A stretch of DNA of 64,000 bases. Source: Prauserella cavernicola. Lineage in GTDB: Bacteria > Actinomycetota > Actinomycetes > Mycobacteriales > Pseudonocardiaceae. Positions within the stretch are counted from its first letter, which is position 1; the number at the start of each line of letters is the position of its first letter. This document shows positions 5,627 to 48,363 of this stretch, piece by piece. Below the pieces are notes generated by a model. The model was not told the origin of the DNA, did not search any database, and was given only the letters and a program-made list of their open reading frames with translations. The stretch spans positions 1,240,001 through 1,304,000 of the forward strand of contig NZ_JAENJH010000002.1 in assembly GCF_016595675.1 (NCBI RefSeq), written 5' to 3'. The position numbers were made by a program, and so were the translations under genes.

Positions 5627-7063
5627 CTAGTTGCGCAGCGAACCCGGATAGAGGTGCTCGTCACCGGGCAGCTCCGTGCCCCGGAACCAGTCGGCGAAGA
5701 AGCCTTCCAAGTCCTGGCCGGAGACGTCCGAGACGAACTGTTCGAAGTCCGGCCAGCTCGCGTTGCCCTCGCGGTGCTCGACGGGCCACTGCTTGAGCAC
5801 GCGGTCGAACGCCTCGTCGCCGATCTGCTTGCGCAGCGCGTGGATCGCGAGGGTTCCCTTGTCGTACACGCCTTCGAACTCGTTGCCCGCGCCCATGTCG
5901 TAGAGCTTCTGGCCCCAGAACTCGGTGTCGTCGCGCAGCTGGTCGATGTTGTTGCGGTACCTGGCATCGAGGTTGTCGCCCTGCTTGCCCTCGGCCCACA
6001 GCCATTCCGAGTAGCTCGCGAGGCATTCGTTGAGGCAGATGTCGGCCCACGACTCGACCGAGACCTCGTTGCCGTACCACTGGTGGGCGAGCTCGTGCAC
6101 GATCGTCGAGAAGTCGGCCCCGAGGGTGTAGGTGGGCCTGCCCTGCGTCTCCAGGGAGTAGCCGACGTCGTTGGCGAGGTAGATGCCGCCGGCCGACGTG
6201 GCCGGGTACTCGCCGAACTTCGTGGTGAGAAAGTCGATCACCTCGCCGACCCGGTCAGCGTCGCGCCGGATGCCCTCGGCTCCGGGGGCGTACGCGCTGA
6301 GCACGGGGGTGCCGTCGGCGAGCTGTCCCTTGTCGACGGTGAAGCGGTCGACGGCCACGGTAGTGAGGTAGCTGGCGACGGGTTCCTGCTCGGTCCAGGT
6401 GCTCGTGGTCCAGCCGTTCTCGGTCTTCGAGCTCTCCTGCGTGCCGATCGACACGGCGGTCCAGCCCTGCGGCACGCGCGCGGTGAGCCGGAACGTGGCC
6501 TTGTCGCGCGGGTGCTCGTTCACGGGGTACCAGTACGACCCCGACTGTGGTTCACCGAGCACGAACGCGCCGCCGGACTCGCTGCGCTGCCAGCCGTTGC
6601 CGCCGAGCTGGGCGCTGGAGGCGTCCTGCGGTTTGCCGTCGTAGCGCACGCGCGTGGTGAACTCGCTGCCCTCGGCCAGCGGCTCGCCGGGCGTGATCAC
6701 GAGCTCGAAGTCGCCTTCCCTGGCGAACTCCGCGGGCTGGCCGTCGACTTCGACGGAGCTGACGGTGAAGCCGCGCAGGTCGAGGTTGAACCGTTCGAGG
6801 TCCTGGGTGGCGCGCGCGGTGACGGTGGTGTCGCCGTCGAGATTGCCGTTGTCCGGGTTGTAGCCGATGGAGACGTCGTATCCGGTGGCGTCGTAGCCGC
6901 CGTTGCCGTCCTCGGGGTAGTACGGATCGCCGATCCCGGCCGCGCCCTGCACCGGAGCTCCCTGGTCTGGTTCCCGGGATTCGTCCGGTTGGGACGTGGT
7001 GCACGCGGCTAGTGTGCACACCAGACCGCCCAGCAGGGCGGCCCGCGCGCGGCGGCTAAACAT
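5627..7063 (-). CDS. Lipoprotein M1-family zinc metallopeptidase
   Basis: A 478-residue secreted aminopeptidase-like protein. A signal peptide ends in the lipobox LAAC (lipid-anchored C21), so it should sit outside the membrane. The zinc site HELAHQWYGN has H323, E324 and H327, with the third ligand E346 in NEC, the usual 18-residue spacing. The N-terminal beta-rich domain (about 45-250) is typical of M1 enzymes. The exopeptidase GAMEN motif is replaced by YSLETQGRP, a form I associate with short actinobacterial M1 proteins. It lacks the long C-terminal domains of PepN. It is not coupled to mhuD (16-bp gap). Confidence 0.88.
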   Translation of the reverse strand: MFSRRARAALLGGLVCTLAACTTSQPDESREPDQGAPVQGAAGIGDPYYPEDGNGGYDATGYDVSIGYNPDNGNLDGDTTVTARATQDLERFNLDLRGFTVSSVEVDGQPAEFAREGDFELVITPGEPLAEGSEFTTRVRYDGKPQDASSAQLGGNGWQRSESGGAFVLGEPQSGSYWYPVNEHPRDKATFRLTARVPQGWTAVSIGTQESSKTENGWTTSTWTEQEPVASYLTTVAVDRFTVDKGQLADGTPVLSAYAPGAEGIRRDADRVGEVIDFLTTKFGEYPATSAGGIYLANDVGYSLETQGRPTYTLGADFSTIVHELAHQWYGNEVSVESWADICLNECLASYSEWLWAEGKQGDNLDARYRNNIDQLRDDTEFWGQKLYDMGAGNEFEGVYDKGTLAIHALRKQIGDEAFDRVLKQWPVEHREGNASWPDFEQFVSDVSGQDLEGFFADWFRGTELPGDEHLYPGSLRN

Positions 7064-20377: not shown

Positions 20378-21124
20378 TCATCGACCCCCGGCGGTGATGA
20401 GGCGGAACCCGACGTCGAGCTCGTCGAGCTCCAGAAGGTCGGCGTGGCGTCGCCGCCAGCGGCCGGAGTCGAGGTCGCGCCGCAGCCGCTCGATGCCGCG
20501 CGTCACCGCCGCCGGATCGGTCTGGGCGAGCGCCGAGCAGTTCGCGCGCACCCGCTCGTCCAGGTAGGCCTCGGGCCGACGCCAGAACGACGGGAACACG
20601 CCGTCCGTGAAGTCCCACGGCACGGGCAACACGGCAACGTCGTCGGCGCCGAGCTCGGTCGCGATGTCCTCGGCGGAAGGGCGGGAGCGCTCCAGTCGCG
20701 CGATCTCCGGGACGTACTCCCGCGTGAACCAGAACTCGCTGTGCAGCCGCGTGTCGTAGGCCAGCACCACCTGACGGTCTGCGACCCGCCGCAGCTCGGC
20801 GAGGCCCTGACGCCAGTCGGTCCAGTGGTGCACGGTCAGCACCGCCATCGCGGCGTCGACGGCGTGATCTCGAACGGGCAGGTTCTCGGCGACGGCCCGC
20901 ACGGCCGGAGCCAGGTATGGCCCTCGCTGTGTCAGCATCCCCCGCGAAGGCTCCACCGCCAGCACCGTCGACGCCGAGGGTTCGTAGGACCCGGTGCCCG
21001 CTCCGACATCGAGGACGGAACCGGCGTCTCCCAGCGCCGCCGTGATGGCCGCCATCCAGCGGGGATCTGTCCGCCGCCCGTGCGAGTAGCCGCGGCCGAT
21101 CCGGTCGTACACCTGCGTGGCCAT
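20378..21124 (-). CDS. Class I SAM-dependent methyltransferase
   Basis: A 248-residue Rossmann-fold methyltransferase. Motif I is VLDVGAGTGSYEP, followed by the acidic VLAVEPS and VRAVAENLPVRDHAVDAAM, typical of Methyltransf_11 proteins. The ATG at 21124 has a GGGGAG ribosome site. The substrate is unknown. It may be cotranscribed with the regulator upstream (64-bp gap). Confidence 0.85.
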   Translation of the reverse strand: MATQVYDRIGRGYSHGRRTDPRWMAAITAALGDAGSVLDVGAGTGSYEPSASTVLAVEPSRGMLTQRGPYLAPAVRAVAENLPVRDHAVDAAMAVLTVHHWTDWRQGLAELRRVADRQVVLAYDTRLHSEFWFTREYVPEIARLERSRPSAEDIATELGADDVAVLPVPWDFTDGVFPSFWRRPEAYLDERVRANCSALAQTDPAAVTRGIERLRRDLDSGRWRRRHADLLELDELDVGFRLITAGGR

Positions 21125-21188
21125 GTTCTCCCCGTCCAACAGCGCGACACCGGAGCGAGCCCGAGCTCTGGTCGGAGGCGCTGACGCC

Positions 21189-21524
21189 TCAGGTCGGCTC
21201 GAGGGTGTCGCGCAGCCGGGAGAGCCAGTCCAGGTGGCCCCGGAGCGCGGCCTGGCCATCGTCGGTGAGCCGGAACCAGGTCCGTGGGCGACGGCCCACC
21301 GAACCCTTGCGCACCTCCAGATAGCCCGCGTCCTCGAGGGTGCGGCTGTGCTTGGAAATCGCGGAGTCGCTCGCGCCCAGCATGTCGCGGGCCGTCGCGA
21401 AGTCGACCCACTTCGCGCCCTGCAGCAGTGCGCACAGCGCCAGCCGGGGACCGGTCTCGAAGATCGGTTGGCGACCCCAGCCCTCGGTCTGGCCCGCGCC
21501 CCGTTCGAGGTCCTGACTGCTCAC
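21189..21524 (-). CDS. Winged-helix transcriptional regulator
   Basis: A 111-residue MarR/ArsR-like winged helix of the HTH_34 type: LCALLQGAKWVDFATARDM then DSAISKHSRTLEDAGYLEVRK as the recognition helix and wing. There is no metal-binding Cys/His pattern. The GTG start overlaps the stop of the membrane protein gene (GTGA), a common pairing in which the small regulator controls its own membrane partner. Confidence 0.82.
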   Translation of the reverse strand: MSSQDLERGAGQTEGWGRQPIFETGPRLALCALLQGAKWVDFATARDMLGASDSAISKHSRTLEDAGYLEVRKGSVGRRPRTWFRLTDDGQAALRGHLDWLSRLRDTLEPT

Positions 21525-21988
21525 GGCCTGACCCGGCCCGCCTCGATGTCACGGCGCATCGCCGAACGGATCTTGAGGTGGGTGAAGAACACGGCGATGG
21601 CCACGACGGGGAGCACCATGAGCGCGATGTTGCGCTGATCGTTGTTGACCAACACGTTGATCCCGACGAACCCGGCGAGCGTGATCACGATGCTGGCCAG
21701 CCAGATCGGTCGCGCGCTGGGGTAGGCGCCTGCCCACTTGGGGAGGTGGACGCCCGACCTGCGCCGCTTGATCACGGAGTAGACGGCCGAGCCGAGCGCG
21801 ATCGCCCCGAGCGACCAGCCCAGATAGGTGGAGCCGGCCGAGTTCACCCAGCTCATCCAGATCGGCACACCGGCCATGAAAACGAGGGCGACCCCGAAGA
21901 AGACCCAGTAGCCCGTCGGGAACTGGGCGTGGGACGCGACCTTGCGGCGTGCGTCGGCGACCTGGTCGAGTTCGGACATGCCAGACAT
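21521..21988 (-). CDS. Small four-helix membrane protein of unknown function
   Basis: A 155-residue protein with four likely transmembrane segments in two pairs (TGYWVFFGVALVFMAGVPIW, GWSLGAIALGSAVYSVI, IWLASIVITLAGFVGINVL, IALMVLPVVAIAVFFTHL) and a charged cytoplasmic loop. It heads a coupled operon with the winged-helix regulator. I do not recognise a family with confidence. Before insertion of the mobile element this gene lay directly downstream of the MBOAT gene. Confidence 0.75.
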   Translation of the reverse strand: MSGMSELDQVADARRKVASHAQFPTGYWVFFGVALVFMAGVPIWMSWVNSAGSTYLGWSLGAIALGSAVYSVIKRRRSGVHLPKWAGAYPSARPIWLASIVITLAGFVGINVLVNNDQRNIALMVLPVVAIAVFFTHLKIRSAMRRDIEAGRVRP

Positions 21989-22114: not shown

Positions 22115-22130
22115 CGTCAGAACTGGTAGT
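22115..22130. repeat. attL: left copy of the 16-bp attachment core
   Basis: CGTCAGAACTGGTAGT, identical to 32126-32141. It lies 62 bp from the integrase stop, as expected for attL. Read on the minus strand, the element side encodes ...YNYQF then stop, an imitation of the ...YYQF end of the target protein. Confidence 0.85.
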
Positions 22131-22192
22131 TGTAGGTAAGGAAGTGGGTCTGAGCTGCCAGTTCGAAGATCAACGGGCAGCTCAGGCCGTGG

Positions 22193-23440
22193 TCAGGCCG
22201 CCGCCGGGAGATCCCCACGACCTGGGCCGAAGACCCCGTCCACCGCGCGGCGGGTCCGTTCCTTGCTCGACGGCATCAGGTGTGTGTACGTGCGGAGCGT
22301 GAAGCCGGGGTCCGCGTGACCGAGGTAGCTCGCGAGCGCGGCCACGGTCTCCCCAGCGTCGAGCAGCGTCGAGGCGTAGAAGTGCCGTAGCGCGTGGAAG
22401 CCGTCGACCCGTGGAACCCGTTCCACCCCGGCCTTCTTGAGTGCGGGTGCCCACGTCCACTGGTTGAAGACCGGCCGCCATGCCTGCGTACGTTCCCTGC
22501 TGTAGACGAGCAGCCGCGCCGTCACCAGCTCGCCGCCCGGATGCTTCCACGGCAGCGTGACCGACAGCGGCGGGAACTGTGCCATGTGATCGACCAGCGC
22601 CTTGCCCACCGAGTCGGGCAGCGGGACATCCCTCGTCTTGTTCCGTTTCGGAGGAGCAAAGCACGGCTTGTTGCCGACCAGCTTCACCTGACGCTGTACG
22701 TGGACCTCCCCGCCATCGAAGTCGACGTCATCGACAGCCAGGCCGAAGACCTCACCCTGCCGAAGCCCAAGGCCAGCCCCGAGCAGCACCGTGACCTTGT
22801 ACCGCTCCGCCATCGCCTCGTGCACCGCGTGAACCCGCTCAGCCGTCCACGGGATGATCTTGCGAGCTTCGGCCTTCGGTTTGCGCACTGACGCCGCGTT
22901 GCATGGGTTCTTTCTGATCTTCTCGTCGTCAACCGCTGCGTTCAGCACCGACTGGAGATGCGCGAACAGCACCTCTCGATAACTGGCCGCCAGCCCCTTG
23001 TCCTGAAGCTTGCGGTCCCACTCCCGCACGTCCGAGGCTGTGATGCCGTCCAGGAACTTGTCACCGAGATGCGGATAGATGTGCAGCCGCATCCGGTAGG
23101 CCGTCAGCTCCCGCGTCGACTCCTCGAAGCTCTGGCTGGCCACCCATCGCTGTGCGTACTCCCGCAGCACCACCTTCCCCGCCTTCGGGTCGAGGTAGCT
23201 GCCCCGGTTCTTCTCGTCCTCCACCTTGTGCATGAAGTCCTCGGCCAGACGCTTCTTCTTGTCCGGAAAGGACTTGCTCCGCTCGTTGCCCACAGGGTCG
23301 AGGTAGCGCACCTTGTACCGCAGACCTTTGCCGAAGAGTTCGGTCTTCTCCAGCACCGGCTTACCCTGCGCGTTCAGGAGCGGCTTCCCGGTCTCCGAGT
23401 CCTGGGCAGGCCGATACCAGCGATCTTGGATATGTCCCAT
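22193..23440 (-). CDS. int: Tyrosine recombinase (AICE integrase)
   Basis: A 415-residue phage-type integrase. An N-terminal arm-binding part and SAM-like core-binding domain (about 95-185) precede the catalytic domain with R227 (GLGLRQGE), H349-x-x-R352 (HALRH), H375 (GHADPG) and nucleophile Y385 (TLRTYTHL). All residues of the RHRH-Y set are present, so it should be active. The ATG at 23440 overlaps the xis stop (ATGA). It catalyses site-specific insertion at the MBOAT 3' end defined by the flanking repeats. Confidence 0.95.
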   Translation of the reverse strand: MGHIQDRWYRPAQDSETGKPLLNAQGKPVLEKTELFGKGLRYKVRYLDPVGNERSKSFPDKKKRLAEDFMHKVEDEKNRGSYLDPKAGKVVLREYAQRWVASQSFEESTRELTAYRMRLHIYPHLGDKFLDGITASDVREWDRKLQDKGLAASYREVLFAHLQSVLNAAVDDEKIRKNPCNAASVRKPKAEARKIIPWTAERVHAVHEAMAERYKVTVLLGAGLGLRQGEVFGLAVDDVDFDGGEVHVQRQVKLVGNKPCFAPPKRNKTRDVPLPDSVGKALVDHMAQFPPLSVTLPWKHPGGELVTARLLVYSRERTQAWRPVFNQWTWAPALKKAGVERVPRVDGFHALRHFYASTLLDAGETVAALASYLGHADPGFTLRTYTHLMPSSKERTRRAVDGVFGPGRGDLPAAA

Positions 23441-23634
23441 CAGGCCGCCTCCGTCAGTCCGTCCACCCAGGCCCGCACCTTGGCCGGGTCGTATCGGAGG
23501 TGACGGCCGAGCTTGCGGACCGGCGGACCCTCGCCGCGCCACTTCCACTGGTAGAGCGTCTTCACCGGCACCCCCAAGTAGGCCGACACGTCCTCGACCG
23601 ACCACAGCCGCTCGAATCTGCTCACGTTCTCCAC
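23440..23634 (-). CDS. xis: Excisionase/AlpA-like MerR-type helix-turn-helix protein
   Basis: A 64-residue winged-helix protein of the HTH_17 type (LWSVEDVSAYLGVPVKTLYQ then WKWRGEGPPVRKLGRHLRY). Such proteins bend attachment-site DNA and turn the integrase toward excision. It is coupled to int by a 4-bp overlap and follows the rep gene, the order repSA-xis-int of pSAM2. Confidence 0.92.
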   Translation of the reverse strand: MENVSRFERLWSVEDVSAYLGVPVKTLYQWKWRGEGPPVRKLGRHLRYDPAKVRAWVDGLTEAA

Positions 23635-23652
23635 TGCGTTCCCCCTGGTAGT

Positions 23653-25299
23653 TCAGGCTGCGAGCTGAGTTGCCGAAGTTTCTGGCGCATCGCCTGGTGG
23701 TCCCTGCGCGGCGAGTAAGGCCCGGTCGTACTCGGCCCGCCAAGTGACTCGTTCGGCGATGGCGTGCATGAGCAGGTGTGCCCGTGGTGGCACGTGCTGA
23801 TCGCCGGGTGCGACCTTGCGCCAGATCAGGCGCGAGGTGTCTTCCTCGGGTTTCTCGATGCCGACTCCGGCGAGCATGTCCCGCACGAACCGTTTGCGGT
23901 CCGTCTTGTGGTCGGCCAGCGACTTGCCCGACCACTTGCGGGAGACGAGGACCCTGCGACCGGGCAGGCCGAGCGTGGTCCGCCGATGAGCCCGCCCCTT
24001 GCACCTGCCGGGCGTGGTCTTGGCGTTGCTGCCCAACGGTTGGATGCCGTAGAGCAGCCAGACCGCGCACCGGGGCGAGCACGGGGTGATCGCCAACTCG
24101 GCGTGCAACCGGTCGTGGTGATCCCGTTGCCGGTTGGACGCGGCCTCGACGACCTCACCGGTGGACTTGGTGAGGTACTTCGTCAGGTAGCCGATGTGCC
24201 GCCCGGCTTCCTCGGTGCCGCCGAGGATGCCCTTGGAGTGCACTTGCCGCCCGAACCGCACCACGTGCGCCGGGTCCTCAACCTCCTCTACCGCCTGATG
24301 CCATTCGGTCAGCGGACGTCGGGTGTCCGGGTCCACGAAACAGGCCGTGCGGGAATCCCAGACGGGCACCTGGTCGCCGTCGTAGACGAGCCGGTCATGA
24401 GCAGGCCACCAGACCTGGTGATAGGTGGCCGCGGTGACCATGCGGATGACCTCGTGCGACATCGACCCACGCAACGCCGCATGCAGATGAGGTGCGGCCC
24501 GCTTCTGGGGCTCGACGGTGGCGAAGTACTGCACGTCCCAGCCCGCCACACGGCGCAGGTTCTGCCACCACCGATCGATCAGGGCGGAGAAGTGCACCGC
24601 ATCCCGCGCCGCCCTGCGGTAGTCATAGCCCGCCGGGTCGATCGGGGTGCCGTCGTCCCGGACCCGCCCGTAGGTGTCCAGGGTCAGGGTGACGAACATC
24701 GACGGCCGGAACCGCCCCGCGAACTCCCGACCCACGGTGGTCTTGGTGACCTTGCGGGTCGGGAGGTCCGGCGCGTCCTGCCGCCGCTTCGTGGACCGCT
24801 TCGTCGGCTGCTTGACGGGGACCTCGACGGCGGGGAGTCGGCCCCGCATCCCGAGTGCCCGCAGCTCGTCGTCCACACCCCGGATCTCGTCACGGAGTTC
24901 TTCCGCGTCGCAGTCCGCGCCTTCGTCCACTGCCTGGCGGTAGGCGTGCACGAGGTCGGCCCGGAACTCGAGCAGTTCGGTCTGCTGCCCGGTGGGTGGT
25001 TCCGGGGTGAAGTCCGGTTCCTCGGTCAGATGCCAACCCTCACGGCACTGGGTCTGCCGCAGCGCCTTCGCCTTGCGCGCACACGGCAGACAGACCGACT
25101 CCACGGTGGAGCCGCAGGGCACCGCGACGTAGCGGAGTTCACCGGTGTCCGGGTCGCCAACCTCCATCGTGAACGGACGGACACAGACACCGTGCTTCTC
25201 CGCCGTGGCCTTGATGACCTCGGTGGACAGAGGCAGCCGCATCCGCTCCGCGCGAGTCAGCCGCGACACGTCGACCGGAGTGGTCGCAGGGATGGTCAT
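23653..25299 (-). CDS. repSA: RepSA-like replication initiator
   Basis: A 548-residue initiator. It has an N-terminal cysteine cluster (CLPC near 70-73), the HUH metal-binding motif in APHLHAALRG (H271 and H273), and the tyrosine motif GYLTKYLTKST (Y372 and Y376), giving the layout of rolling-circle initiators. pSAM2 RepSA nicks the origin to start replication of the excised circle. The ATG at 25299 overlaps the stop of the preceding gene. The origin was not located; in pSAM2 it lies close to rep. Confidence 0.92.
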   Translation of the reverse strand: MTIPATTPVDVSRLTRAERMRLPLSTEVIKATAEKHGVCVRPFTMEVGDPDTGELRYVAVPCGSTVESVCLPCARKAKALRQTQCREGWHLTEEPDFTPEPPTGQQTELLEFRADLVHAYRQAVDEGADCDAEELRDEIRGVDDELRALGMRGRLPAVEVPVKQPTKRSTKRRQDAPDLPTRKVTKTTVGREFAGRFRPSMFVTLTLDTYGRVRDDGTPIDPAGYDYRRAARDAVHFSALIDRWWQNLRRVAGWDVQYFATVEPQKRAAPHLHAALRGSMSHEVIRMVTAATYHQVWWPAHDRLVYDGDQVPVWDSRTACFVDPDTRRPLTEWHQAVEEVEDPAHVVRFGRQVHSKGILGGTEEAGRHIGYLTKYLTKSTGEVVEAASNRQRDHHDRLHAELAITPCSPRCAVWLLYGIQPLGSNAKTTPGRCKGRAHRRTTLGLPGRRVLVSRKWSGKSLADHKTDRKRFVRDMLAGVGIEKPEEDTSRLIWRKVAPGDQHVPPRAHLLMHAIAERVTWRAEYDRALLAAQGPPGDAPETSATQLAA

Positions 25300-25688
25300 C
25301 AGGCGGCCACCCCCTGCCGACCGCGAGCCCATCCGCGCAGCACCCACACCGGCACCTCCTGCGTGACCGCCACCGGCAGGTCAGGCAACGCGGTACGGGT
25401 GTAGCGGACCGCGCCGTACACGTGAACCGGGGCACCACAGGGAAGTCGACCGACGACGGTCACCAACACCCGCGACCCATCCGCCAGCCGGTGCAGTTCA
25501 GCCGTGGAGCCGTCGAGGCTCGCGGCCCACGAACACAACTGGCCGGCCACTTCCGTGAGGTCCCAGCCGTCGAGCTGGACCTTGACCGGTTCCCGCCACG
25601 TCGTGACCCGTACCCCGATCGCGCCCGGCAGGTTGTGCCGCACGAGATGAGCGCGGATGGCGTCGAGGAAGACGATCAGCTCGTTCAC
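25299..25688 (-). CDS. Small AICE protein of unknown function between traB and rep
   Basis: 129 residues, soluble, with no motif I recognise. It starts NELIVFLDAIRAHLVRHN and ends in a basic tail. The GTG start at 25688 overlaps the traB stop and its own stop overlaps the repSA start, so it is locked into the transfer/replication operon. Position suggests a role in replication or spread, but nothing in the sequence proves it. Confidence 0.75.
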   Translation of the reverse strand: MNELIVFLDAIRAHLVRHNLPGAIGVRVTTWREPVKVQLDGWDLTEVAGQLCSWAASLDGSTAELHRLADGSRVLVTVVGRLPCGAPVHVYGAVRYTRTALPDLPVAVTQEVPVWVLRGWARGRQGVAA

Positions 25689-27175
25689 GCTGCCGCACCC
25701 CCTTCCATTCGCTGGCCGGGGAAGTTCAGGACTTCCGCGCGGTGCACGGGAACGCCGGTGACGAAGGTGACCAGCTCGTCCAGGTCGGTGTCGGTGACGT
25801 GGAAAGCCCGAGCGCGGAACGGCTCCCGACGCCCCTCTTCCTTGGCCCACGCGACGCCGGGTGTCTGCTCGGAGATCTCGTGCGCCGTCGCCCCGCGCTC
25901 CCGGACACCATCGCCGAGGACCATGTCCACCTGCGGTTTCTCATCCAGCCGCATGGCGATGCGGGTGGAGAACAGGTGTCGGAAGCTCACGACCTCCTTG
26001 CGCGGGTCCTGCAACAGCCCCAGCACGCACACACCGGGTGCCCGGCCCTGGCTCGTGATCGTCTGCACCGCCCGCGACGCGCGTTCCCGCAGGCCCTTGT
26101 CGGCCTGGTAGGCGATCACGTCCGCCAGCTCATCAACCACGAGCAGGATGAACGGGTCCCCGGTCTCCGGAGTCCACGCCCGCAACCTCCCCCGATACCG
26201 AGTGGCGCGTTCCTTCACCGTCGCCGCGATCTCCTCCAACAGCACCACCGCGTCAGGACCGTTGTCGAACACGACCTTGCTGAAGACCTCCGGGGCCTGG
26301 CCGAGCTCCATGCCGCCCTTGGGGTCGATGCCCGCCAGCCGCACCTTCCCCGAGCGGATCAACGGCGCGAGCGCCCACACGATCGACCACAACAGCGAGC
26401 CCTTGCCCGCACCCGACACCCCCACCGCCAACACGTGGGTACCGAGCAGCCGCAACCGCCACGGCTTACCCACCTCCGTGCGACCCACGGTCACCCGCTT
26501 CAAATCGACCGCCGCCGCATCCTCCACCAGATCCGGCACCGCCACGGGATGCACGAGCGGGTCACTGTGCACCAGGTCCAGCTCCAAACGACCCGGCTTG
26601 AGCACCCGCACCCGGCACGAGCGGGCCTTGAACGCGTGCGCCAAACCGGAGGCGTGCAGCTCCCACTGCTCCGGGGCCTGGCCCTTGACCATCCGCACCC
26701 GTACCCGGTCCCGCCAGCCTTCCGAGCGCACCCGCCCGAGCGCAGGCCGGTACTCCTTGCCCCGGCTGGACTTCACCAGATCCGACAGCCGCATCACCGT
26801 GCGCCACTGACACGCATACACCGAGAACCGCCGGAACTCCGTGCGAGGCTGCGGGGCCACGAACCGCCCGAACGACGGCGCATGCCGCCACCGCCACAAC
26901 CCCAACACCACCACCACGGCCAACAACGTGAACGCCACCATCCACCACCCGGACTGGGCCTGAAGCCAGCCCACGAGCACCGCGACAGCGATGGTCAACG
27001 GGTAGCGCACCGCGACCCGGGCGAGCTGGAACACAAGCCAGCACACCACCCAGACCGCCGCCACCGGCGCGACGACGACCTTGATCCACCCGGGCAGCAG
27101 CGTCCACCACGGCAACCGGGGCCGCGAGATCTCCAGCGGGGCAGGGTCGGCCCAACGCGAACCATGCACGCTCAT
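25685..27175 (-). CDS. FtsK/SpoIIIE-like conjugative DNA translocase (TraB/TraSA type)
   Basis: A 496-residue membrane-anchored translocase. Two N-terminal hydrophobic stretches (about 31-58 and 61-95) precede the motor domain with Walker A GVSGAGKGS (252-260) and Walker B FILLVVDEL. In Streptomyces plasmids and AICEs this single protein moves double-stranded DNA between mycelia by recognising clt repeats through a C-terminal winged helix. A short C-terminal region (VPVHRAEVLNFPGQ) could be that part. The ATG overlaps the stop of the small zinc-ribbon gene. Confidence 0.92.
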   Translation of the reverse strand: MSVHGSRWADPAPLEISRPRLPWWTLLPGWIKVVVAPVAAVWVVCWLVFQLARVAVRYPLTIAVAVLVGWLQAQSGWWMVAFTLLAVVVVLGLWRWRHAPSFGRFVAPQPRTEFRRFSVYACQWRTVMRLSDLVKSSRGKEYRPALGRVRSEGWRDRVRVRMVKGQAPEQWELHASGLAHAFKARSCRVRVLKPGRLELDLVHSDPLVHPVAVPDLVEDAAAVDLKRVTVGRTEVGKPWRLRLLGTHVLAVGVSGAGKGSLLWSIVWALAPLIRSGKVRLAGIDPKGGMELGQAPEVFSKVVFDNGPDAVVLLEEIAATVKERATRYRGRLRAWTPETGDPFILLVVDELADVIAYQADKGLRERASRAVQTITSQGRAPGVCVLGLLQDPRKEVVSFRHLFSTRIAMRLDEKPQVDMVLGDGVRERGATAHEISEQTPGVAWAKEEGRREPFRARAFHVTDTDLDELVTFVTGVPVHRAEVLNFPGQRMEGGAAA

Positions 27176-27294
27176 CGAGCCTCACCCCGCTTCGCCGAGG
27201 CAGGCATGTCGAGAGGAAGCCGACCCGCACAGCCCGCGCAGTCGCGGTCACCGGGAGCCAGCCGAGCGAAACGCTTGCAGGTGGCGCAACGCAT
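27172..27294 (-). CDS. 40-residue zinc-ribbon microprotein of the AICE
   Basis: A very short gene coupled to traB (ATGA overlap at 27172-27175). It begins MRCATCKRFARLAPGDRDC and continues AGCAGRLPLDMPAS, giving two CxxC knuckles (C3/C6 and C19/C22) fit to bind one zinc. The ATG at 27294 follows GGGGGT. Such small zinc proteins sit next to transfer genes in many actinomycete elements. It may act with TraB or as a regulator; this is inference. Confidence 0.7.
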   Translation of the reverse strand: MRCATCKRFARLAPGDRDCAGCAGRLPLDMPASAKRGEAR

Positions 27295-27497
27295 CCGGGT
27301 GACCCCCGTTGACTCGCGCCCCTGCTCGTTGTCTATCGTTGCCAATGTCTACTCCGTCTGGTGTGGACAGCGCAGAAGCGGCAAGGTTGGTAGCCACGCA
27401 CCGCTTCTGCGCCTTACGTTCCAACAAGTCCGAACGAGGGCGCGCGTCATCGCCGCACGACCCACAGGCCGCACGTTCACCCTCTACAGTGGACTAA
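27295..27497. promoter_or_regulatory. Intergenic region of the AICE with a 12-bp inverted repeat
   Basis: About 200 bp upstream of the zinc-ribbon and traB genes. GCGCAGAAGCGG (27370-27381) and its perfect complement (27401-27412) flank a 19-nt loop. Nearby, ACAGT...ACTGT (27486-27504) forms a smaller inverted repeat across the end of the upstream gene. Possible roles are an attenuator before traB, a protein-binding site or part of the transfer locus. Confidence 0.45.
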
Positions 27498-27731
27498 CTA
27501 CTGTGGTTGCTTGATCTCCTCAGCCTTACGCTTCTCGCGCCCGGACCAGTACAAAGCCTCGTGGTGATGCCCCCGGTCGATCTCTGCGATCCGCGCGTAC
27601 ACGGCAGAGCTGCGCAGGTAGTAGTCACGCCACACGGCCAGCGGTTCGCCGTCGCCGGGGCGCAGACCGGACAGAACCTCGTGTGCCTGCTTCAGCGTCT
27701 GCACCTCACGCGCCTTGTCCCACTCGCTCAC
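27498..27731 (-). CDS. AMED_5909 family small protein
   Basis: 77 residues, helical and charged, ending VYARIAEIDRGHHHEALYWSGREKRKAEE. I recognise this conserved core from the AMED_5909 family of actinomycete mobile elements; its function is unknown. I chose the GTG at 27731 (VSEWDKAREV) because GGAGG sits just before it; the frame is open to a GTG at 27749. Confidence 0.7.
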   Translation of the reverse strand: MSEWDKAREVQTLKQAHEVLSGLRPGDGEPLAVWRDYYLRSSAVYARIAEIDRGHHHEALYWSGREKRKAEEIKQPQ

Positions 27732-27735
27732 GTCG

Positions 27736-28107
27736 TCACCTCCCCCCACGGTGCAGGGAACGGGAGGTGCGAGGGTGAACAGGACGAGTGCCGCCGGTGC
27801 TCACCCCCGCGCCGAACCGTCGAGCTTGCTCCGCCCAGTAGTCGGCCTGTTCATCGAAGGACTCAGCCGCCGAGACCATCGCCGCCACGATCCACCAGGA
27901 CAAAGCGCCCTGCGTCGCGATCGCCCGCCACGCCACAGCGACAGCCTTAGATGCCTCGGCCATGCTCGACGCGGTGTCGATTCCGCGGCTGCGGTCGAGG
28001 GCTTCACACGCCGTTCCGTACCGGCGATACGCCTCTTCCCATCCCTTCACGAGCGGTCGGGGAACGACGGCAAGCCCCTTCACGTTGGCCTCGCCCATGG
28101 AGATCAC
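27736..28107 (-). CDS. AICE accessory protein of unknown function
   Basis: 123 residues. The central part is helical and Ala/Trp-rich (SKAVAVAWRAIATQGALSWWIVAAMVSAAESF), with a basic C-terminus. The GTG start at 28107 overlaps the pra stop (GTGA), so it is coupled to pra; the next gene starts 4 bp beyond its stop. I know no motif for it. Confidence 0.68.
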   Translation of the reverse strand: MISMGEANVKGLAVVPRPLVKGWEEAYRRYGTACEALDRSRGIDTASSMAEASKAVAVAWRAIATQGALSWWIVAAMVSAAESFDEQADYWAEQARRFGAGVSTGGTRPVHPRTSRSLHRGGR

Positions 28108-28580
28108 GCGGCCTTGGCCGGAGTCTCAGCCCCGCCACCGTTGCCAGCCGACTTGCCCGCTGACCTGCCAGCGCCACCACTGGCCATAGCGGCCTTGAAG
28201 GCAGTCGCACGGAAGACGTACGACTGGTACTTGAACTCACCATTGCCCGCGACCTTGGGCTCAGCCGTCAGGCCGTCGAGCTCGATCGGGCGCATACCCG
28301 GCAGAGCCTCGTCGGTCGTGGGCACGGGCTGCACGTCGGCCAGGAACGTGAGGACGAACGAGGCACGCTTGGCGTTGGTCTCGCTCGGGTCGGTGACCGT
28401 GGCCTTCCACTGCCGCTTGCCCGTGGTCTCGTCCAACTTCTGCTTGGGCTGCTTGCCACGCGCCCGCTCGTCGTTCGACAGGTACTCGTTGTCCGGCGCG
28501 ACCTCGCCGACCATCACCAACCCCTGCGGGAAGGCGTCATCAAAGTTGATCGGGAACCGGTGACCCCTGTTGATCGCCAT
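28104..28580 (-). CDS. pra: Pra-like plasmid replication, integration and excision activator
   Basis: 158 residues. The N-terminal pattern (MAINRGHRFPINFDDAFPQG, then VMVGEVAPDNEY) and the middle (GKRQWKATVTDP) are those of the Pra activators of pSAM2-type elements, which switch on the rep-xis-int operon. It ends in a Gly/Ala-rich low-complexity tail. Its promoter region is shared with the divergent GntR regulator and holds three repressor-like operators, the arrangement of pra and korSA in pSAM2. Confidence 0.82.
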   Translation of the reverse strand: MAINRGHRFPINFDDAFPQGLVMVGEVAPDNEYLSNDERARGKQPKQKLDETTGKRQWKATVTDPSETNAKRASFVLTFLADVQPVPTTDEALPGMRPIELDGLTAEPKVAGNGEFKYQSYVFRATAFKAAMASGGAGRSAGKSAGNGGGAETPAKAA

Positions 28581-28651
28581 CTGTGTTCTGTCTCCTCATT
28601 GATCGCCTGTAGGGAGCCCTTCAGCGGGCTTCACGGCCACCCCATCGGAGC

Positions 28652-28704
28652 AACCTCGTATACGAGGTTAAGCCTCGTATGTGAGGATGTCAACATACGA
28701 GGTT
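28652..28704. promoter_or_regulatory. Three operator-like palindromes between pra and the GntR repressor
   Basis: A perfect 18-bp palindrome AACCTCGTATACGAGGTT (28652-28669) is followed by an imperfect copy CCTCGTATGTGAGG (28673-28686) and a half-copy CATACGAGGTT (28694-28704). These are likely KorSA-type repressor sites that shut pra off and autoregulate the GntR gene. Confidence 0.75.
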
Positions 28705-28744
28705 CTGTGAGACGATCAGCCCGAACCTGAGGAGGGCGAAAAAC

Positions 28745-29554
28745 ATGTCTGAGCTGCTGTTTGGCGAGCACGCGGACTTCCCGAGCGATGACGAACCGCG
28801 CTACAAGCAGATCGCCAAGGAGTACCGCCGCCGGATCATCGACGGCGATCTACAGGACGGTGAGAAGCTTCCGAGCGAAGCCCAGCTCTGCGACATCCAC
28901 AACGTCTCCGCGATCACCGCCCGCGCGGCCATGAAGCTCCTGCGCGAGTGGGGCTTCGCCAACGGCATTCGAGGTAAGGGCGTCTTCGTCCGCCGCCTGG
29001 ACAAGCTCACTCGCATCGCCCCTCAGCGGTATTTCCGGGGCCAAGAAGTCCGCACCTACGTGCGAGAGGCCGAGGCGTCGGGCGCGAAGCTCGACGTGCA
29101 GCACGAGACCATCCGAACCACGGCGCCGGCCGATATCGCCAAGCGACTCGGCATCGCCGAAGGCGATCCCGTGACCTGCACCCGCTACTTCATCCGCATG
29201 GGCAACCCAGCCCAACCGGTCACCAGCAGCCAGGCATGGGAGCCCCTCGCCATCACTGGCGGCACCGACATTGAGCTACCCCACGAGGGCGAGCACGCGA
29301 ACAAGGGCATCGTTGACCGCTTCGGAGCCATCGGCCTGCACGTCAACCAGGTGGAGGAGGTGCTGGATATCCGCACCCCGACGCCCGAGGAAGCCCGCGC
29401 CCTCGAAATGCCGCCCACGCGCCCCCTGGTCGAGATCCACCAGACATTCCGCGTCGCCGACCGCCACGGAGCCGAAGACCTCGCAGTCGAAACCGCCGAC
29501 ATCCTATTCCCCGCCGACCGCTACGAACTTCGATACGTTATGGAGATCCACTAA
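28745..29554 (+). CDS. GntR/HutC-family regulator (KorSA-like repressor of the AICE)
   Basis: 269 residues. An N-terminal GntR winged helix (YKQIAKEYRRRIIDGDLQDG, LPSEAQLCDIHNVSAITARA, GIRGKGVFV) is followed by a UTRA effector domain (about 100-265). In pSAM2, KorSA of this family represses pra and holds the element integrated. GGAGGG precedes the ATG. It is divergent from pra across the palindrome cluster. Confidence 0.88.
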   Translation: MSELLFGEHADFPSDDEPRYKQIAKEYRRRIIDGDLQDGEKLPSEAQLCDIHNVSAITARAAMKLLREWGFANGIRGKGVFVRRLDKLTRIAPQRYFRGQEVRTYVREAEASGAKLDVQHETIRTTAPADIAKRLGIAEGDPVTCTRYFIRMGNPAQPVTSSQAWEPLAITGGTDIELPHEGEHANKGIVDRFGAIGLHVNQVEEVLDIRTPTPEEARALEMPPTRPLVEIHQTFRVADRHGAEDLAVETADILFPADRYELRYVMEIH

Positions 29555-29561
29555 GTCTGCA

Positions 29562-30287
29562 TCAGTACGAACATGCGCGAAGAAGTCGCCGCCAAAGCTT
29601 CGGCGAGGCTACACGCAAAGCAACCATTTCGGGTTCCTGGCTACCCTCCCAGTAGCCATACCAGCGTGAAACCGCAACATCGTCTTCACGTACTAGTGTC
29701 AAAAGGTCTTCGCGTGCTTGATTTGAACTTGGCGCTGTGGCTGCGCTCCCGATTGCCTTCTTCAGACTTCGACAAACTCTCGCTCTACCCTCTGCTACGC
29801 CCTCATGATTTATCGTTGGTAGCACTGAGAGAGTGAACTCTCCGACCGGATCGAATGTGCTCTCCAAATATCGTGGAGATATAAATCCCGTTGCCGTATC
29901 CAAAGTAAGATGCGCCCAAGGATCTGTCCGCGACGGGTCGACCAGTAGTGGCTCTCCCGTATCAGCGACCGGGAAATTCGCCCCTTTTTGTCGATTGCAC
30001 TTTGTGCAAACCCACAAGAAGTTCTTCCAACTAAATACTCGACCGTGATCCCTTGCTATAGGAACGTAGTGGTCGATATCAGAAGCGTAGGAGTCGCTGC
30101 AATAGGCGCAACGTTGCCTAGTCCCAGCCATCGCTTCTAGTGCGGAGATTACCTCCTTTGCAGGCTTAGATCTCCTGTAGCGATCCCAGTGCTCGCGGCC
30201 CGACTTCGCCGAAGTGACATTCTTTTGACGCGCGAAAAGGTCCTGTCTCGATTCAAATTTAAGCGCAGGGCGATGGAGTCTTCGCAT
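29562..30287 (-). CDS. ptuB: HNH endonuclease of a Septu defence system (PtuB)
   Basis: 241 residues. The HNH core has zinc knuckles CAYC (C60/C63) and CTKC (C94/C97), with the metal/catalytic DIDHYVP (D72-H73) and FLWVC..CN..KG. It starts 5 bp after the ATPase gene, the ptuA-ptuB order of type I Septu, where ATPase and nuclease form a complex that cuts DNA during phage infection. The region is clearly AT-richer than its surroundings, a sign of recent acquisition. Confidence 0.85.
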   Translation of the reverse strand: MRRLHRPALKFESRQDLFARQKNVTSAKSGREHWDRYRRSKPAKEVISALEAMAGTRQRCAYCSDSYASDIDHYVPIARDHGRVFSWKNFLWVCTKCNRQKGANFPVADTGEPLLVDPSRTDPWAHLTLDTATGFISPRYLESTFDPVGEFTLSVLPTINHEGVAEGRARVCRSLKKAIGSAATAPSSNQAREDLLTLVREDDVAVSRWYGYWEGSQEPEMVALRVASPKLWRRLLRACSY

Positions 30288-30292
30288 TGGTA

Positions 30293-31576
30293 CTACTCGC
30301 CCAAGACCCCGGCAAAGAGATCGAGCTGCTCAAACTCTCGTTTTTCTTCGGGACTTAGGCCAACCTTGCGTTCTTTTGCGACAAGACGCGCGCGGCGTTC
30401 GCGGGCCCTTACAGTTCGAGGCGAACGTGTATGCGGCAGGTTAAACGCAGGAGTGAGTAGGATCTCGTCAGGCTTACCTGTAATTATGCGTCGATATTCG
30501 TCGTGCGACACCTTGAAAGGTTCACCGCTTCCTGCTGTCGGCATGTGGTATATCCGACCAGCGTCTGCGGCCTGGCAAACCAGAGGGCTATGCGTGGTAA
30601 CAATAAATTGTATTCGCGGCAAGTGATTCTTGAGCCAGAATCCTATTTCACGCTGCCAAGCTGGATGGAGATGCGCGTCAATTTCATCGATCATGACCAC
30701 GCCGGGCCGGTCTATGAAAGTGCGCCCATCCTCGTCTCGACTAAGAAGATTCTCGGAACCAAAAACGCTCACCATGTGGCGAAATATGTCGATAAGCATT
30801 GCGAGGGCAGATCTATATCCCTCGCTCATGTCGGACAGCGGCATCTTGCGCCCCGCAGAGTCGCGCATCCAGATACCGTCAGAATTCACTGCGTCGATCG
30901 CCACACCCTGTCGAAGAAAATTGTCTCCGACTAAGTTTAATAAAGCGTCGAGAATAGTTGCGTCTTCTTTGTTCTGTTCCAGTCGACGATAGTTGAGTGT
31001 CTTGACCCATTCTTCACCCTCGGCGAGAGTTGCGTCTTCTTTGAAGAGGGTAGCGTAACGCGGAACTCTTCCCGGAAGCATCATCAAACGTTGAGCATCC
31101 GGCGAACTTCCGTACAGCCTTCTAAAAGGGCCATATCCGACCGAAAACCAACCGGGTGTCAGAGACTGCCAGGGCCCGTTGAGGGCGCCTTTCTTTTTAT
31201 TTCTGAAAATATCTGCCGACGACACATCGAACATCCGGTCACTTCGCCGAATCTCTATCTCAGCCCAGAAGGTGCCCGCGACCGGAAATCCGCCTTTGCG
31301 AGTTTTGTCGTGGTCGTGGTCGGGCAGAACTTCAACTGAAATCGTCCCGCTATCGAGCCCGTCCGTGATCCAGCCCGAAAAATCGGGAACGAGGGACGCG
31401 GCTTGGTCTGGGCCGAGCAGGGCTAGTGCGATCGCCTTCAGGAAGGCTGTCTTTCCTGCACCGTTTTCACCTGTGATGACAGACCAGCCATCGAATGAAT
31501 CGTCATCGCCGACGAGGCTCAAATCAGCGTTATCAAAACCTTTGATTCCTGAAAGAACAACACGCCTGATGTACAT
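30293..31576 (-). CDS. ptuA: AAA/ABC-type ATPase of a Septu defence system (PtuA)
   Basis: 427 residues. It opens MYIRRVVLSGIKGFDNADL, with Walker A GENGAGKT (36-43), a signature-like LSDMSEGYRSAL, Walker B GVVMIDEIDAHLHP and the switch VTTHSPLV, i.e. an OLD/RecF-like ABC ATPase. Paired with the HNH nuclease it matches Septu. The frame is open to 31651, but the family start is the ATG at 31576; the ribosome site is weak. Codon use is unusually AT-rich for this genome. Confidence 0.87.
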   Translation of the reverse strand: MYIRRVVLSGIKGFDNADLSLVGDDDSFDGWSVITGENGAGKTAFLKAIALALLGPDQAASLVPDFSGWITDGLDSGTISVEVLPDHDHDKTRKGGFPVAGTFWAEIEIRRSDRMFDVSSADIFRNKKKGALNGPWQSLTPGWFSVGYGPFRRLYGSSPDAQRLMMLPGRVPRYATLFKEDATLAEGEEWVKTLNYRRLEQNKEDATILDALLNLVGDNFLRQGVAIDAVNSDGIWMRDSAGRKMPLSDMSEGYRSALAMLIDIFRHMVSVFGSENLLSRDEDGRTFIDRPGVVMIDEIDAHLHPAWQREIGFWLKNHLPRIQFIVTTHSPLVCQAADAGRIYHMPTAGSGEPFKVSHDEYRRIITGKPDEILLTPAFNLPHTRSPRTVRARERRARLVAKERKVGLSPEEKREFEQLDLFAGVLGE

Positions 31577-32125
31577 GCCGGAGTCATATACCTTTCGTGA
31601 GTTCTTCCCAGCGCTAGCCGCAACACGGACAGCATACAGCGCGACGTGCAACAGAGCGCCCGGCGAAACGACTGCCCACTGCCGAACTTGGCTCTATGGG
31701 ATCAAGGCGCGCCGCCTGCGGCGGCGCGCTCCCTGCCCCTCACCTTGGCGGCGGGGCCGGATCCATCGCGGCACACGCCGGGCTCCCGCTCCGCTACGCC
31801 CGGCGGGCCGCGCGGCACGGCCGCGCCCAGGTGGGTGCCTGCGCGCCACCGCAGGCGACGAGACAGACCCCCAGCGACCCGAACGCCGGATCGTCCAACG
31901 GCCGCCACACCGCGTCAAGGCGGGAGAGCGTGCCTTGACCCGGCGCAGCGGCCGCTGAGCAGGCTGCGTATCGGATCGATGGGGGAGGCGTGGCCGGAGA
32001 GCTGCCAGGCCGTCTACAGGCCGTCAGGTGGCGGGCAGGCGTGAGAACTCGCGAGAAAGATCAACAAGCAACGCGCAGGTCAGAAGGTATGCGAACGAGG
32101 CGACCCGAGGACCGGGCCACCTGAG
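31577..32125. other. Gene-free right end of the AICE with a 10-bp GC hairpin
   Basis: About 550 bp between ptuA and attR. Composition jumps from AT-rich to very GC-rich near 31700. A perfect 10-bp stem with a TGC loop (GCGCGCCGCC/GGCGGCGCGC, 31707-31729) stands near that boundary. Short frames here are arginine-rich and unconvincing. It may hold the ptuA promoter, the attR arm sites or a transfer/replication site. Confidence 0.45.
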
Positions 32126-32141
32126 CGTCAGAACTGGTAGT
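32126..32141. repeat. attR: right copy of the 16-bp core, inside the MBOAT gene end
   Basis: CGTCAGAACTGGTAGT, identical to 22115-22130. On the minus strand it spells part of ...YYQF, the TGA stop and two bases beyond, so the MBOAT reading frame is intact after insertion. Confidence 0.85.
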
Positions 32142-33564
32142 AGAGGAACGGGCTGAACGTGCCCGTCGCCACCAGGATCGCCGCGTAGGCGAGGCCGACG
32201 GTCATGATGCCGATCCGCAGGGCGGTCGCCGGCTTGCCGCGCGCCGACTCCAGCATCGGCCCCGTCACGGGGCTGGCGGGGAGGAAGAAGATGGCCGCCG
32301 CGGCGAGCAGGAGCACGAGTCGCTGATTCGTCAGCGACGCCCCGACGAGGTCGGTGATGCCCTCGAAGTCCGGCACCAGCATGTGGCCCAGCATCGTCAG
32401 CGCGTGCGCCATGTCGGGCGAGCGGAACAGCACCCAGCCGAAGACCGCCAGCACGAGCGTCAGCGCCCGCCTCGCGATCCGCGCCCTCGAGTCCTTCGGT
32501 GCCTTGTCCCAGCCGAACGCGCGCTCGATGATCAGCAGCGCGCCGTGGTAGATGCCCCACACGACGTACGTCCACGCCGCGCCGTGCCAGAACCCCGTCA
32601 GCACGAACACGATGCTCAGGTTCCGGTACGTCTTGCGTTTGCCGCCGCGGTTGCCGCCGAGCGGGATGTAGACGTAGTCGCGGAACCAGCGCGACAGCGA
32701 CATGTGCCAGCGCCGCCAGAACTCCGTGATCGTCACCGACGAGTAGGGCCTGGCGAAGTTCTCCGGGAGCCGGAAGCCCAGCATCCGGCCAAGGCCGATC
32801 GCCATGTCGGAGTAGCCGGAGAAGTCGAAGTACAGCTGCAGCGTGTACCCGATCGCCCCGAGCCACGCGATCGCGAAGGTCATCTCGTCGGCGGGGGTCG
32901 CGAAGCACGCGTCGACCATCGGGGCCAGCGAGTCGGCGATCACGGCTTTCTTGACCAGACCGAGCGCGAACCGCGGGAACCCGGCCGCGATGTCGTCGAA
33001 GCGGTGCGAACGGTGCTGCGGCAGCTGGTCGGCGATCTCCCGGTACCGCACGATCGGGCCAGCTGCGAGCTGCGGGAACATCGAGATGTACGTCGCGAAC
33101 GCCACCGGGTTGCGCAGCGCGTGCCGCTCGCCCCGGTAGATGTCGACGACGTAGGAGATGTGGTGGAACGTGAAGAACGAGATCCCGATCGGCAGTGCCA
33201 GCGAGACGATGGGGAAATCACCGCCGAAGAGCTCGGCGAACCAGGCGATCTGTTCGGTGGCGAAGCCGGCGTACTTCCACACGAGCAGGATCGACAGGTC
33301 GAACGCGACGACGCCGATCAGCAGCCACCGGCGCCTGTTGTTGGAGCGCAGGCCCCATTCGTCGGGCTCGAGCGCGGGCCCCGCCGCGAAATTGACGGCC
33401 ATGCAGGCGAGCAGCAGGAGCGTGAACGCCCCCGCACCCGTCGCGTAGAACAACAGGCTCGCGACCGCGACGATGCCGTTGCGCCAGCTCCTGGGGCACG
33501 CCAGCAGTGCGATGAGCACCGCGGGCATGAAGTACCACAGGAAGAGTGGCGAGACGAACGACAT
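32128..33564 (-). CDS. MBOAT-family membrane O-acyltransferase (AlgI-like); AICE integration target
   Basis: 478 residues with about ten or more transmembrane helices. It has the MBOAT signature PYSSVTITEFWRRWHMSLS and the catalytic-type His in TGFWHGAAWTYVVWG. AlgI/DltB-like members transfer acyl groups to extracellular polymers. No SGNH (AlgJ/AlgX/DltD-like) partner gene is next to it, so the acceptor is unknown. The ATG at 33564 gives the hydrophobic start MSFVSPLFLWYF. The last codons and stop coincide with attR. Confidence 0.9.
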   Translation of the reverse strand: MSFVSPLFLWYFMPAVLIALLACPRSWRNGIVAVASLLFYATGAGAFTLLLLACMAVNFAAGPALEPDEWGLRSNNRRRWLLIGVVAFDLSILLVWKYAGFATEQIAWFAELFGGDFPIVSLALPIGISFFTFHHISYVVDIYRGERHALRNPVAFATYISMFPQLAAGPIVRYREIADQLPQHRSHRFDDIAAGFPRFALGLVKKAVIADSLAPMVDACFATPADEMTFAIAWLGAIGYTLQLYFDFSGYSDMAIGLGRMLGFRLPENFARPYSSVTITEFWRRWHMSLSRWFRDYVYIPLGGNRGGKRKTYRNLSIVFVLTGFWHGAAWTYVVWGIYHGALLIIERAFGWDKAPKDSRARIARRALTLVLAVFGWVLFRSPDMAHALTMLGHMLVPDFEGITDLVGASLTNQRLVLLLAAAAIFFLPASPVTGPMLESARGKPATALRIGIMTVGLAYAAILVATGTFSPFLYYQF

Positions 33565-48061: not shown

Positions 48062-48134
48062 GCCGGTATAGCTCAGTTGGTAGAGCAGCTGTCTTGTAAA
48101 CAGCAGGTCGCAGGTTCGAGTCCTGTTGCCGGCT
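48062..48134 (+). tRNA. tRNA-Thr (anticodon TGT)
   Basis: A full cloverleaf: acceptor GCCGGTA/TGCCGGC, D-arm AGCTCAGTTGGTAGAGC, anticodon stem GCTGT/ACAGC with loop CTTGTAA (anticodon TGT, codon ACA), and T-arm GCAGGTTCGAGTCCTGT. The CCA end is not encoded. No mobile element sits on it. Confidence 0.97.
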
Positions 48135-48363
48135 CACTCGGGACCGGGGCACGTCCGATGATCGGATTCGCCCCGGTCCTTCTTTGTCTCAGTTGTCTTC
48201 TCGGCTGCTGTGGCCCGGTGAGTGAGGCCGCCGCCATCCCTGCAACGCCGGCTGCCGTCGGAGCCGTTGCCGAGGTGTGTCCGGAGTCATTTCGGACGCC
48301 GGATTCCCAGTAGTCCGAACCAGCTCAGCAAGCCATTGATTCCGCACGCTTGCCAGAGCGTCC

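Follow-up and report, generated by a model that had tools for sequence, protein, structure and literature searches.

The 64-kb stretch of the Prauserella cavernicola genome analysed here (contig NZ_JAENJH010000002.1, 64,000 nucleotides; hereafter the window) contains an actinomycete integrative and conjugative element (AICE) of the pSAM2 kind. Its tyrosine integrase most probably recombines a 12-bp core with the 3' end of a conserved gene for a membrane-bound O-acyltransferase (MBOAT), the end of the protein being restored upon insertion. The probability of this reading is put at about 0.94. The element comprises 10,011 bp between its terminal repeats and carries a pSAM2-type gene set (Int, an Xis-like protein, RepSA and TraB/FtsK). 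A tyrosine integrase, a RepSA initiator, a TraB translocase of the FtsK/SpoIIIE type and flanking att repeats, the hallmarks of an AICE, were all found; the empty sites that belong with the att repeats derive from the flanks of two sister elements.

The ends of the element are marked by an exact direct repeat of 16 bp, CGTCAGAACTGGTAGT, which can be extended on neither side. One copy is located 62 bp from the stop codon of the integrase gene int, and the other spans the stop codon of the MBOAT gene (32128-32130) together with the codons for YYQF. This arrangement had been described in the initial annotation and was confirmed with identical spacing and exact coordinates. The whole 7.2-Mb genome contains only two exact copies of CGTCAGAACTGGTAGT, namely the attL/attR pair. 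With up to three mismatches allowed, the window likewise holds only these two copies, where 0.28 were expected and two were reached in 1 of 100 shuffled sequences. ARAGORN detected no tRNA gene at either end of the element, nor in 14 regions around its relatives (the L075 region covering only 2.9 kb). An assignment to the tRNA-targeting AICEs was rejected, as the sole tRNA gene found in the window is a tRNA-Thr at 48062-48135 and the core lies inside the MBOAT gene.

Related elements and empty sites

The integrase was compared with 390 genomes of the family Pseudonocardiaceae, with up to four candidates scored per genome, and matches at E ≤1e-40 were obtained in 166 of them. Besides the window, the closest integrases were those of G114, G391 (Tamaricihabitans halophyticus), G250 (Labedaea rhizosphaerae) and G070 (Actinophytocola algeriensis), with 65-73% identity, and that of G188, with 70% identity over part of the protein. 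The five belong to four other genera of the family; G114 and G188 share one genus (g15) with G169 and G125, which match Amycolatopsis contigs. Each of the five integrases is encoded within an element that has RepSA and TraB homologues and ends at the same MBOAT gene, with 9.0 to 14.3 kb from core to core. Whether related integrases have MBOAT neighbours was a question raised in the initial annotation, and for the five closest ones the answer was positive. A plasmid search yielded four Streptomyces records, each below 60% identity.

The association of core and integrase was followed in a census of 105 integrase loci, in which some places were fetched two or three times and the window was not counted. 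Among the 13 loci with at least 64% identity, 11 have the motif TACCAGTTCT no more than 150 bp from int, on the int-sense strand; none of the 92 loci below that value does. The 13 loci represent five places, and both misses come from a single one, G188, where int is split by an apparent IS3-type transposase and the core is found 1.7 kb further on. One of the 92 (L056, 55% identity) has the core on the opposite strand. Among 397 genomes of the order, which were a selection from a larger group, no further integrase of the ≥64% class was found, the best new match reaching 56%.

Two genomes display the MBOAT end in its empty state. In G124 the flanks of the G114 element align contiguously, at 90% and 93% identity, and the 10,442-bp element is absent. 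The two flanks overlap there by 11 bp, which correspond to the core, and the stop codon of the empty site is TGA, as expected for the original stop codon of the host. G017 represents the empty site of the G188 element: beginning at the core at the end of MBOAT, the left flank aligns with 75% identity over 326 bp, and beyond a gap that differs in length both genomes are colinear for another 3.8 kb.

A dispersed repeat of about 85 bp is found just beyond the left end of one sister element (L063, about 1140-1226), and Amycolatopsis genomes contain additional copies of it. At another locus (L029, reverse strand, 6740-7040) some 40 bp of the MBOAT 3' end are repeated about 250 bp downstream, perhaps as the scar of another element.

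Exchange within the core and alternative explanations

Both ends of all six elements share ACTACCAGTTCT, which comprises the codons YYQF and the T of the stop codon; the full exact end repeats measure 12 to 20 bp. In four of the six elements the stop codon differs between the two ends. L063, L065 and L067 have TAG beside MBOAT and TGA at the other end, L064 has TGA beside MBOAT and TAG at the other end, and the window and L066 have TGA at both. The element therefore supplies the MBOAT gene with a stop codon of its own and leaves the protein unchanged.

According to the mechanism proposed here, Int would recombine the ACTACCAGTTCT of the element with the like sequence at the MBOAT 3' end. An exchange inside the core would join the body of the MBOAT gene to the last codons and the stop codon that the element carries, with an identical protein as the product, and the original stop codon of the host would be shifted to the other end, attL. 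As judged from homology, the exchange is probably catalysed by Int, with Xis-dependent excision, replication by RepSA and transfer by TraB. The use of a protein-coding MBOAT end and the restoration of the protein by a copied end, both put forward in the initial annotation, gained support from the five further elements, the two empty sites and the stop-codon swaps. The mimicry of the target on the element side of attL (YNYQF) was seen in the window but is not conserved in the other elements.

Repeat motifs on both sides of the core are candidate arm-type integrase sites (Table 1). Pairs of CGGCCTG farther out were found on the int side in five of the six elements; they are visible on the far side too, with L064 diverging.

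The target itself is well conserved. The protein end FSPFLYYQF was present in 20 of 20 MBOAT homologues compared, and TACTACCAGTT was invariant in their DNA, in an alignment in which 54% of the columns vary. Six of these 20 genes bear elements, from which their last bases come; G014 (cut by a contig end) and G005 (broken) were left out. Invariant runs of up to 20 residues also occur elsewhere in the protein, so the MBOAT end is not uniquely conserved.

The two genes nearest to the left end of the element probably belong to the host. The initial annotation had expected the MBOAT gene of element-free relatives to be followed directly by the gene at 21521-21988, an order encountered neither in the genus nor in the family loci. 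This gene had no match in three other genomes of the genus and was matched in 27 of the 390 family genomes, the window's own included. Nine family loci of about 3.5 kb each were fetched from the 26 other matching genomes, and no MBOAT homologue stood beside the gene in any of them. In all nine it formed a pair with the gene at 21189-21524, with no MBOAT or int match nearby, and the pair is therefore read as host DNA. A methyltransferase-like gene at 20378-21259 in the same flank may be of either host or element origin. The possibility that the paired genes are part of this or an older element was rejected, as the window contains no third copy of the core with up to three mismatches. In the sister species, other genes lie between a transporter-like gene and MBOAT. 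No empty site was obtained for the Actinophytocola element, the left flank of which was found in none of five other genomes of the genus (G075 giving two matches of 31 and 41 bases).

Several observations weigh against the proposed insertion into the MBOAT end. For the flank of the element in the window, neither the three other genomes of the genus nor the family loci yielded an empty site, and the empty site in G124 deviates from the 12-bp core by one base (TTT for TTC). Besides the interrupted int of G188, rep of L065 and traB of L066 each match in two pieces and may be broken. In G001, of the same genus, all that is left of a related element is a gntR fragment and, next to MBOAT, an end of 376 bp. 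Over these 376 bp the identity with the right end of the element, core included, is 92%. Open reading frames (ORFs) that read as an IS21-type pair, and further ORFs, follow this remnant (L019, 6434-11100); a second core was not found with up to three mismatches. Some insertions at this site thus decay. The tree of integrases considered below is a quick one without bootstrap. Finally, the window contains 19 different 16-mers that occur again at a distance of more than 3 kb. Such repeats are common in this GC-rich sequence, so the 16-bp repeat by itself is weak evidence.

The last observation would allow the repeat to be a product of chance and the true ends of the element to lie elsewhere. This explanation is negligible, since the same core occurs at a similar distance from int in the relatives and the empty site of G124 is resolved to the core; the repeat is lifted above chance by its position and by the recurrence of the core beside the closest integrases. 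Alternatively, the integrase could have its primary target in a different gene, for instance glutamine synthetase (glnA), and use the MBOAT gene only as a secondary site. A neighbouring integrase clade resides at an apparent glnA, and the glnA end CTGTACTACGACGTCTGA, found in two of eight glnA ends, matches 15 of the 18 bases of the MBOAT end CTGTACTACCAGTTCTGA; four of the eight glnA ends carry GTG for GTC and are therefore one base further from it. The six integrases of the clade are, however, all at MBOAT and none at glnA, and a secondary site is very improbable. The decay at the MBOAT site in G188 and G001 would fit a relic, that is, an insertion that entered the MBOAT gene long ago and has lost excision and transfer. 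For the window this is unlikely, though clearly more plausible than the two preceding explanations: int, the xis-like gene, rep and traB are all open frames, both 16-bp ends are identical, and residues R227, H349, R352, H375 and Y385 of the integrase, which we take to be the catalytic positions, are invariant across five aligned integrases. Integration at the MBOAT 3' end with restoration of the protein remains the preferred interpretation.

Gene content of the element

The G+C content of the element is 64.5%, compared with 68.9% for the window. Its Int, Xis-like, RepSA and TraB proteins belong to the same families as those of AICEs of the pSAM2/RepSA type, with which it shares site-specific insertion at a gene 3' end. 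The stop codon of the xis-like ORF overlaps the start of int. Near the right end, the adjacent genes for a PtuA ATPase and a PtuB HNH nuclease (29562-31576) match the composition of a Septu-type anti-phage defence system, which the element is predicted to carry as cargo.

Table 1. Positions of the predicted features of the element and of its target gene in the window
Feature	Position	Strand	Basis
attL core, element copy joined to left host flank	22115..22130		16-bp repeat; 12-bp core ACTACCAGTTCT within
Putative inner arm-type integrase site GCAGCTCA, GCAGGTCA-like, -39 from core end	22151..22158	-	≤1 mismatch at same distance in 5/6 elements
Putative outer arm-type pair CGGCCTGA, at a spacing of 11 bp, overlapping int stop	22182..22200	-	-81/-70, ≤1 mismatch in 5/6 elements
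int, tyrosine integrase, 415 amino acids	22193..23440	-	Pfam Phage_integrase PF00589, 58.6 bits (cut-off 27.1); aligned with four relatives
xis-like small helix-turn-helix protein, 61-64 amino acids, start unsure	23440..23634	-	TIGR01764 excise, 22.9 bits (under cut-off 28.8)
RepSA-type replication initiator	23653..25302	-	PF20199 RepSA, E 3.4e-102, 343 bits
Small protein	25299..25670	-	No family match in family profile scans
TraB/FtsK-like DNA translocase	25685..27175	-	PF01580, 31.2 bits, E 2e-07 (cut-off 24); NCBIfam plasmid_TraB, 33.9 bits (under cut-off)
Three small ORFs	27498-27749, 27736-28098, 28104-28580	-	No family match in profile scans
GntR/UTRA regulator	28745..29554	+	PF00392, E 5.6e-13; PF07702, E 1.8e-09
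PtuB-like HNH nuclease, cargo	29562..30287	-	PADLOC PtuB, E 1.8e-39; second-best mREase_IV, E 9.9e-25
PtuA-like AAA ATPase, cargo	30293..31576	-	PADLOC PtuA, E 5.5e-142
Putative outer arm-type pair ACGGCCTG, far side	32006..32024	-	Six-element alignment, L064 diverging
Putative inner arm-type site TGACCTGC, in inverted orientation to that on the int side	32075..32082	-	+59, ≤1 mismatch in 5/6 elements
attR core, across MBOAT stop codon	32126..32141		16-bp repeat
Target gene, MBOAT O-acyltransferase, 477 amino acids, ending FSPFLYYQF and stop	32128..33561	-	PF03062, E 4.7e-36

The wider integrase family and its targets

A quick maximum-likelihood tree of 67 rows was calculated, for which 11 of the 105 loci were left out (less than 40% identity or fewer than 300 residues). 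The six MBOAT integrases formed one clade with a value of 100 in the Shimodaira-Hasegawa-like approximate likelihood ratio test (SH-aLRT), and shuffled labels gave a result as low in 0 of 500 trials. Their grouping with the glnA integrases reached an SH-aLRT of only 80. Beside a protein-gene 3' end stand 47 of the 67 rows, and 20 are unlabelled; the labels were given by proximity, a gene end anywhere within 2 kb being accepted for glnA, hlyIII and lpd, and a second att copy was not found in most. The names glnA, hlyIII and lpd derive from reading of the C-terminal sequences.

In 18 of 62 named loci with an integrase (L090, L091, L094-L096, L099, L100, L103-L106, L108, L110, L113, L116, L123, L131 and L135) the end of an acyl-CoA dehydrogenase-like gene is no more than 160 bp away from the int match; in four more such a gene lies at 0.5 to 2 kb. 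The acyl-CoA dehydrogenase-like genes beside the integrases of the 18 loci are of three kinds. Direct repeats reaching into the 3' part of the acyl-CoA dehydrogenase gene were found, for example, in L094, L099, L105 and L116. The neighbouring clade is located at an apparent glutamine synthetase 3' end, FALYYDV (L080, L081, L082, L085, L087, L140, L051 and L054), and other integrases end at apparent hemolysin-III-like protein and dihydrolipoamide dehydrogenase genes. Integrases beside the acyl-CoA dehydrogenase and glnA ends belong to the same family as that of the window, with 43-60% identity in most cases (L113, L116 and others lying within this range). Their targets are situated on the int side and point toward int, whereas MBOAT is at the far end in the six elements. 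Four loci outside the tree, with 30-31% identity (L128, L130, L132 and L134), are beside tRNA genes.

G387 contains a seventh element, with a traB and an integrase of 55% identity but no RepSA match; here the MBOAT gene is on the int side. Its cores are 13.2 kb apart (L142, 1616 and 14815), and the homology shared with G015, a genome of the same genus, breaks off precisely at the stop codon of MBOAT. Judging from this anatomy, another, distant lineage of integrases appears to target this MBOAT end in the opposite orientation.

In L083 (11319-11330) a glnA-type core stands at the end of a truncated AMP-binding ORF that resembles a non-ribosomal peptide synthetase and ends QCYDV, perhaps through an off-target insertion by which a stop codon was supplied. 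The remainder of the AMP-binding gene was not found by a motif search of 21 kb.

The window integrase may be a member of a large family of actinobacterial integrases that has specialised on the final codons of conserved proteins rather than on tRNA genes, and may change target by hopping between genes with like C-terminal codons. The proposal is tentative, and we consider it somewhat less probable than its negation. The ends of glutamine synthetase (LYYDV and stop) and MBOAT (LYYQF and stop) are alike in up to 15 of 18 bases. If the proposal holds, this family would rely on invariant protein C-termini in the way that other integrases rely on tRNA 3' ends.

The vast majority of tyrosine-integrase AICEs are reported to be inserted in tRNA 3' ends, the pSLS subfamily being an exception, and some serine-integrase AICEs reside in protein genes (PMC3218068). 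The element of the window differs from most tyrosine-integrase AICEs in its protein-gene target. It can be likened, by site only, to AICE03 of Streptomyces RLB3-6, which occupies the protein gene rlmN with an 11-nt direct repeat (PMC9513070), and, by description only, to the pSLS integrases, which act outside tRNA genes (PMC3218068). The insertion sites of conjugative elements have been counted as 36 tRNA genes, 14 protein genes and one intergenic space (PMC9513070), elements often restore the gene they enter (PMC12884075), and a serine-integrase prophage lies inside an acyl-CoA dehydrogenase gene, in mid-gene (PMC9934374). The initial annotation had regarded MBOAT instead of a tRNA as an exceptional target. 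The target as such holds, but protein targets are not exceptional, in view of the published cases (PMC3218068, PMC9513070) and the 47 of 67 tree rows.

No mention of an MBOAT or O-acyltransferase gene as a target of integrases or AICEs was found in the open-licence literature, PMC12169178 being unrelated, and no paper there was found on AICEs of Pseudonocardiaceae or on glutamine synthetase as an insertion site. Absence from print is not established by this search, because it covered one open-licence collection. AICEs in protein genes are already known; MBOAT as a repeated, clade-wide target, the exchange of stop codons and the wider habit of the integrase family look new.

With the MBOAT end, a class of elements that has been described as bound mostly to tRNA genes gains a reproducible target in a protein gene, and insertion there swaps the stop codon of the host gene without a change of the protein. 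For Pseudonocardiaceae, the family to which antibiotic producers like Amycolatopsis belong, the integrase-att pairs whose empty sites are seen in relatives are candidates for integration vectors. Related integrases stand beside acyl-CoA dehydrogenase and glutamine synthetase genes, which makes the change of integrase targets testable inside one family.

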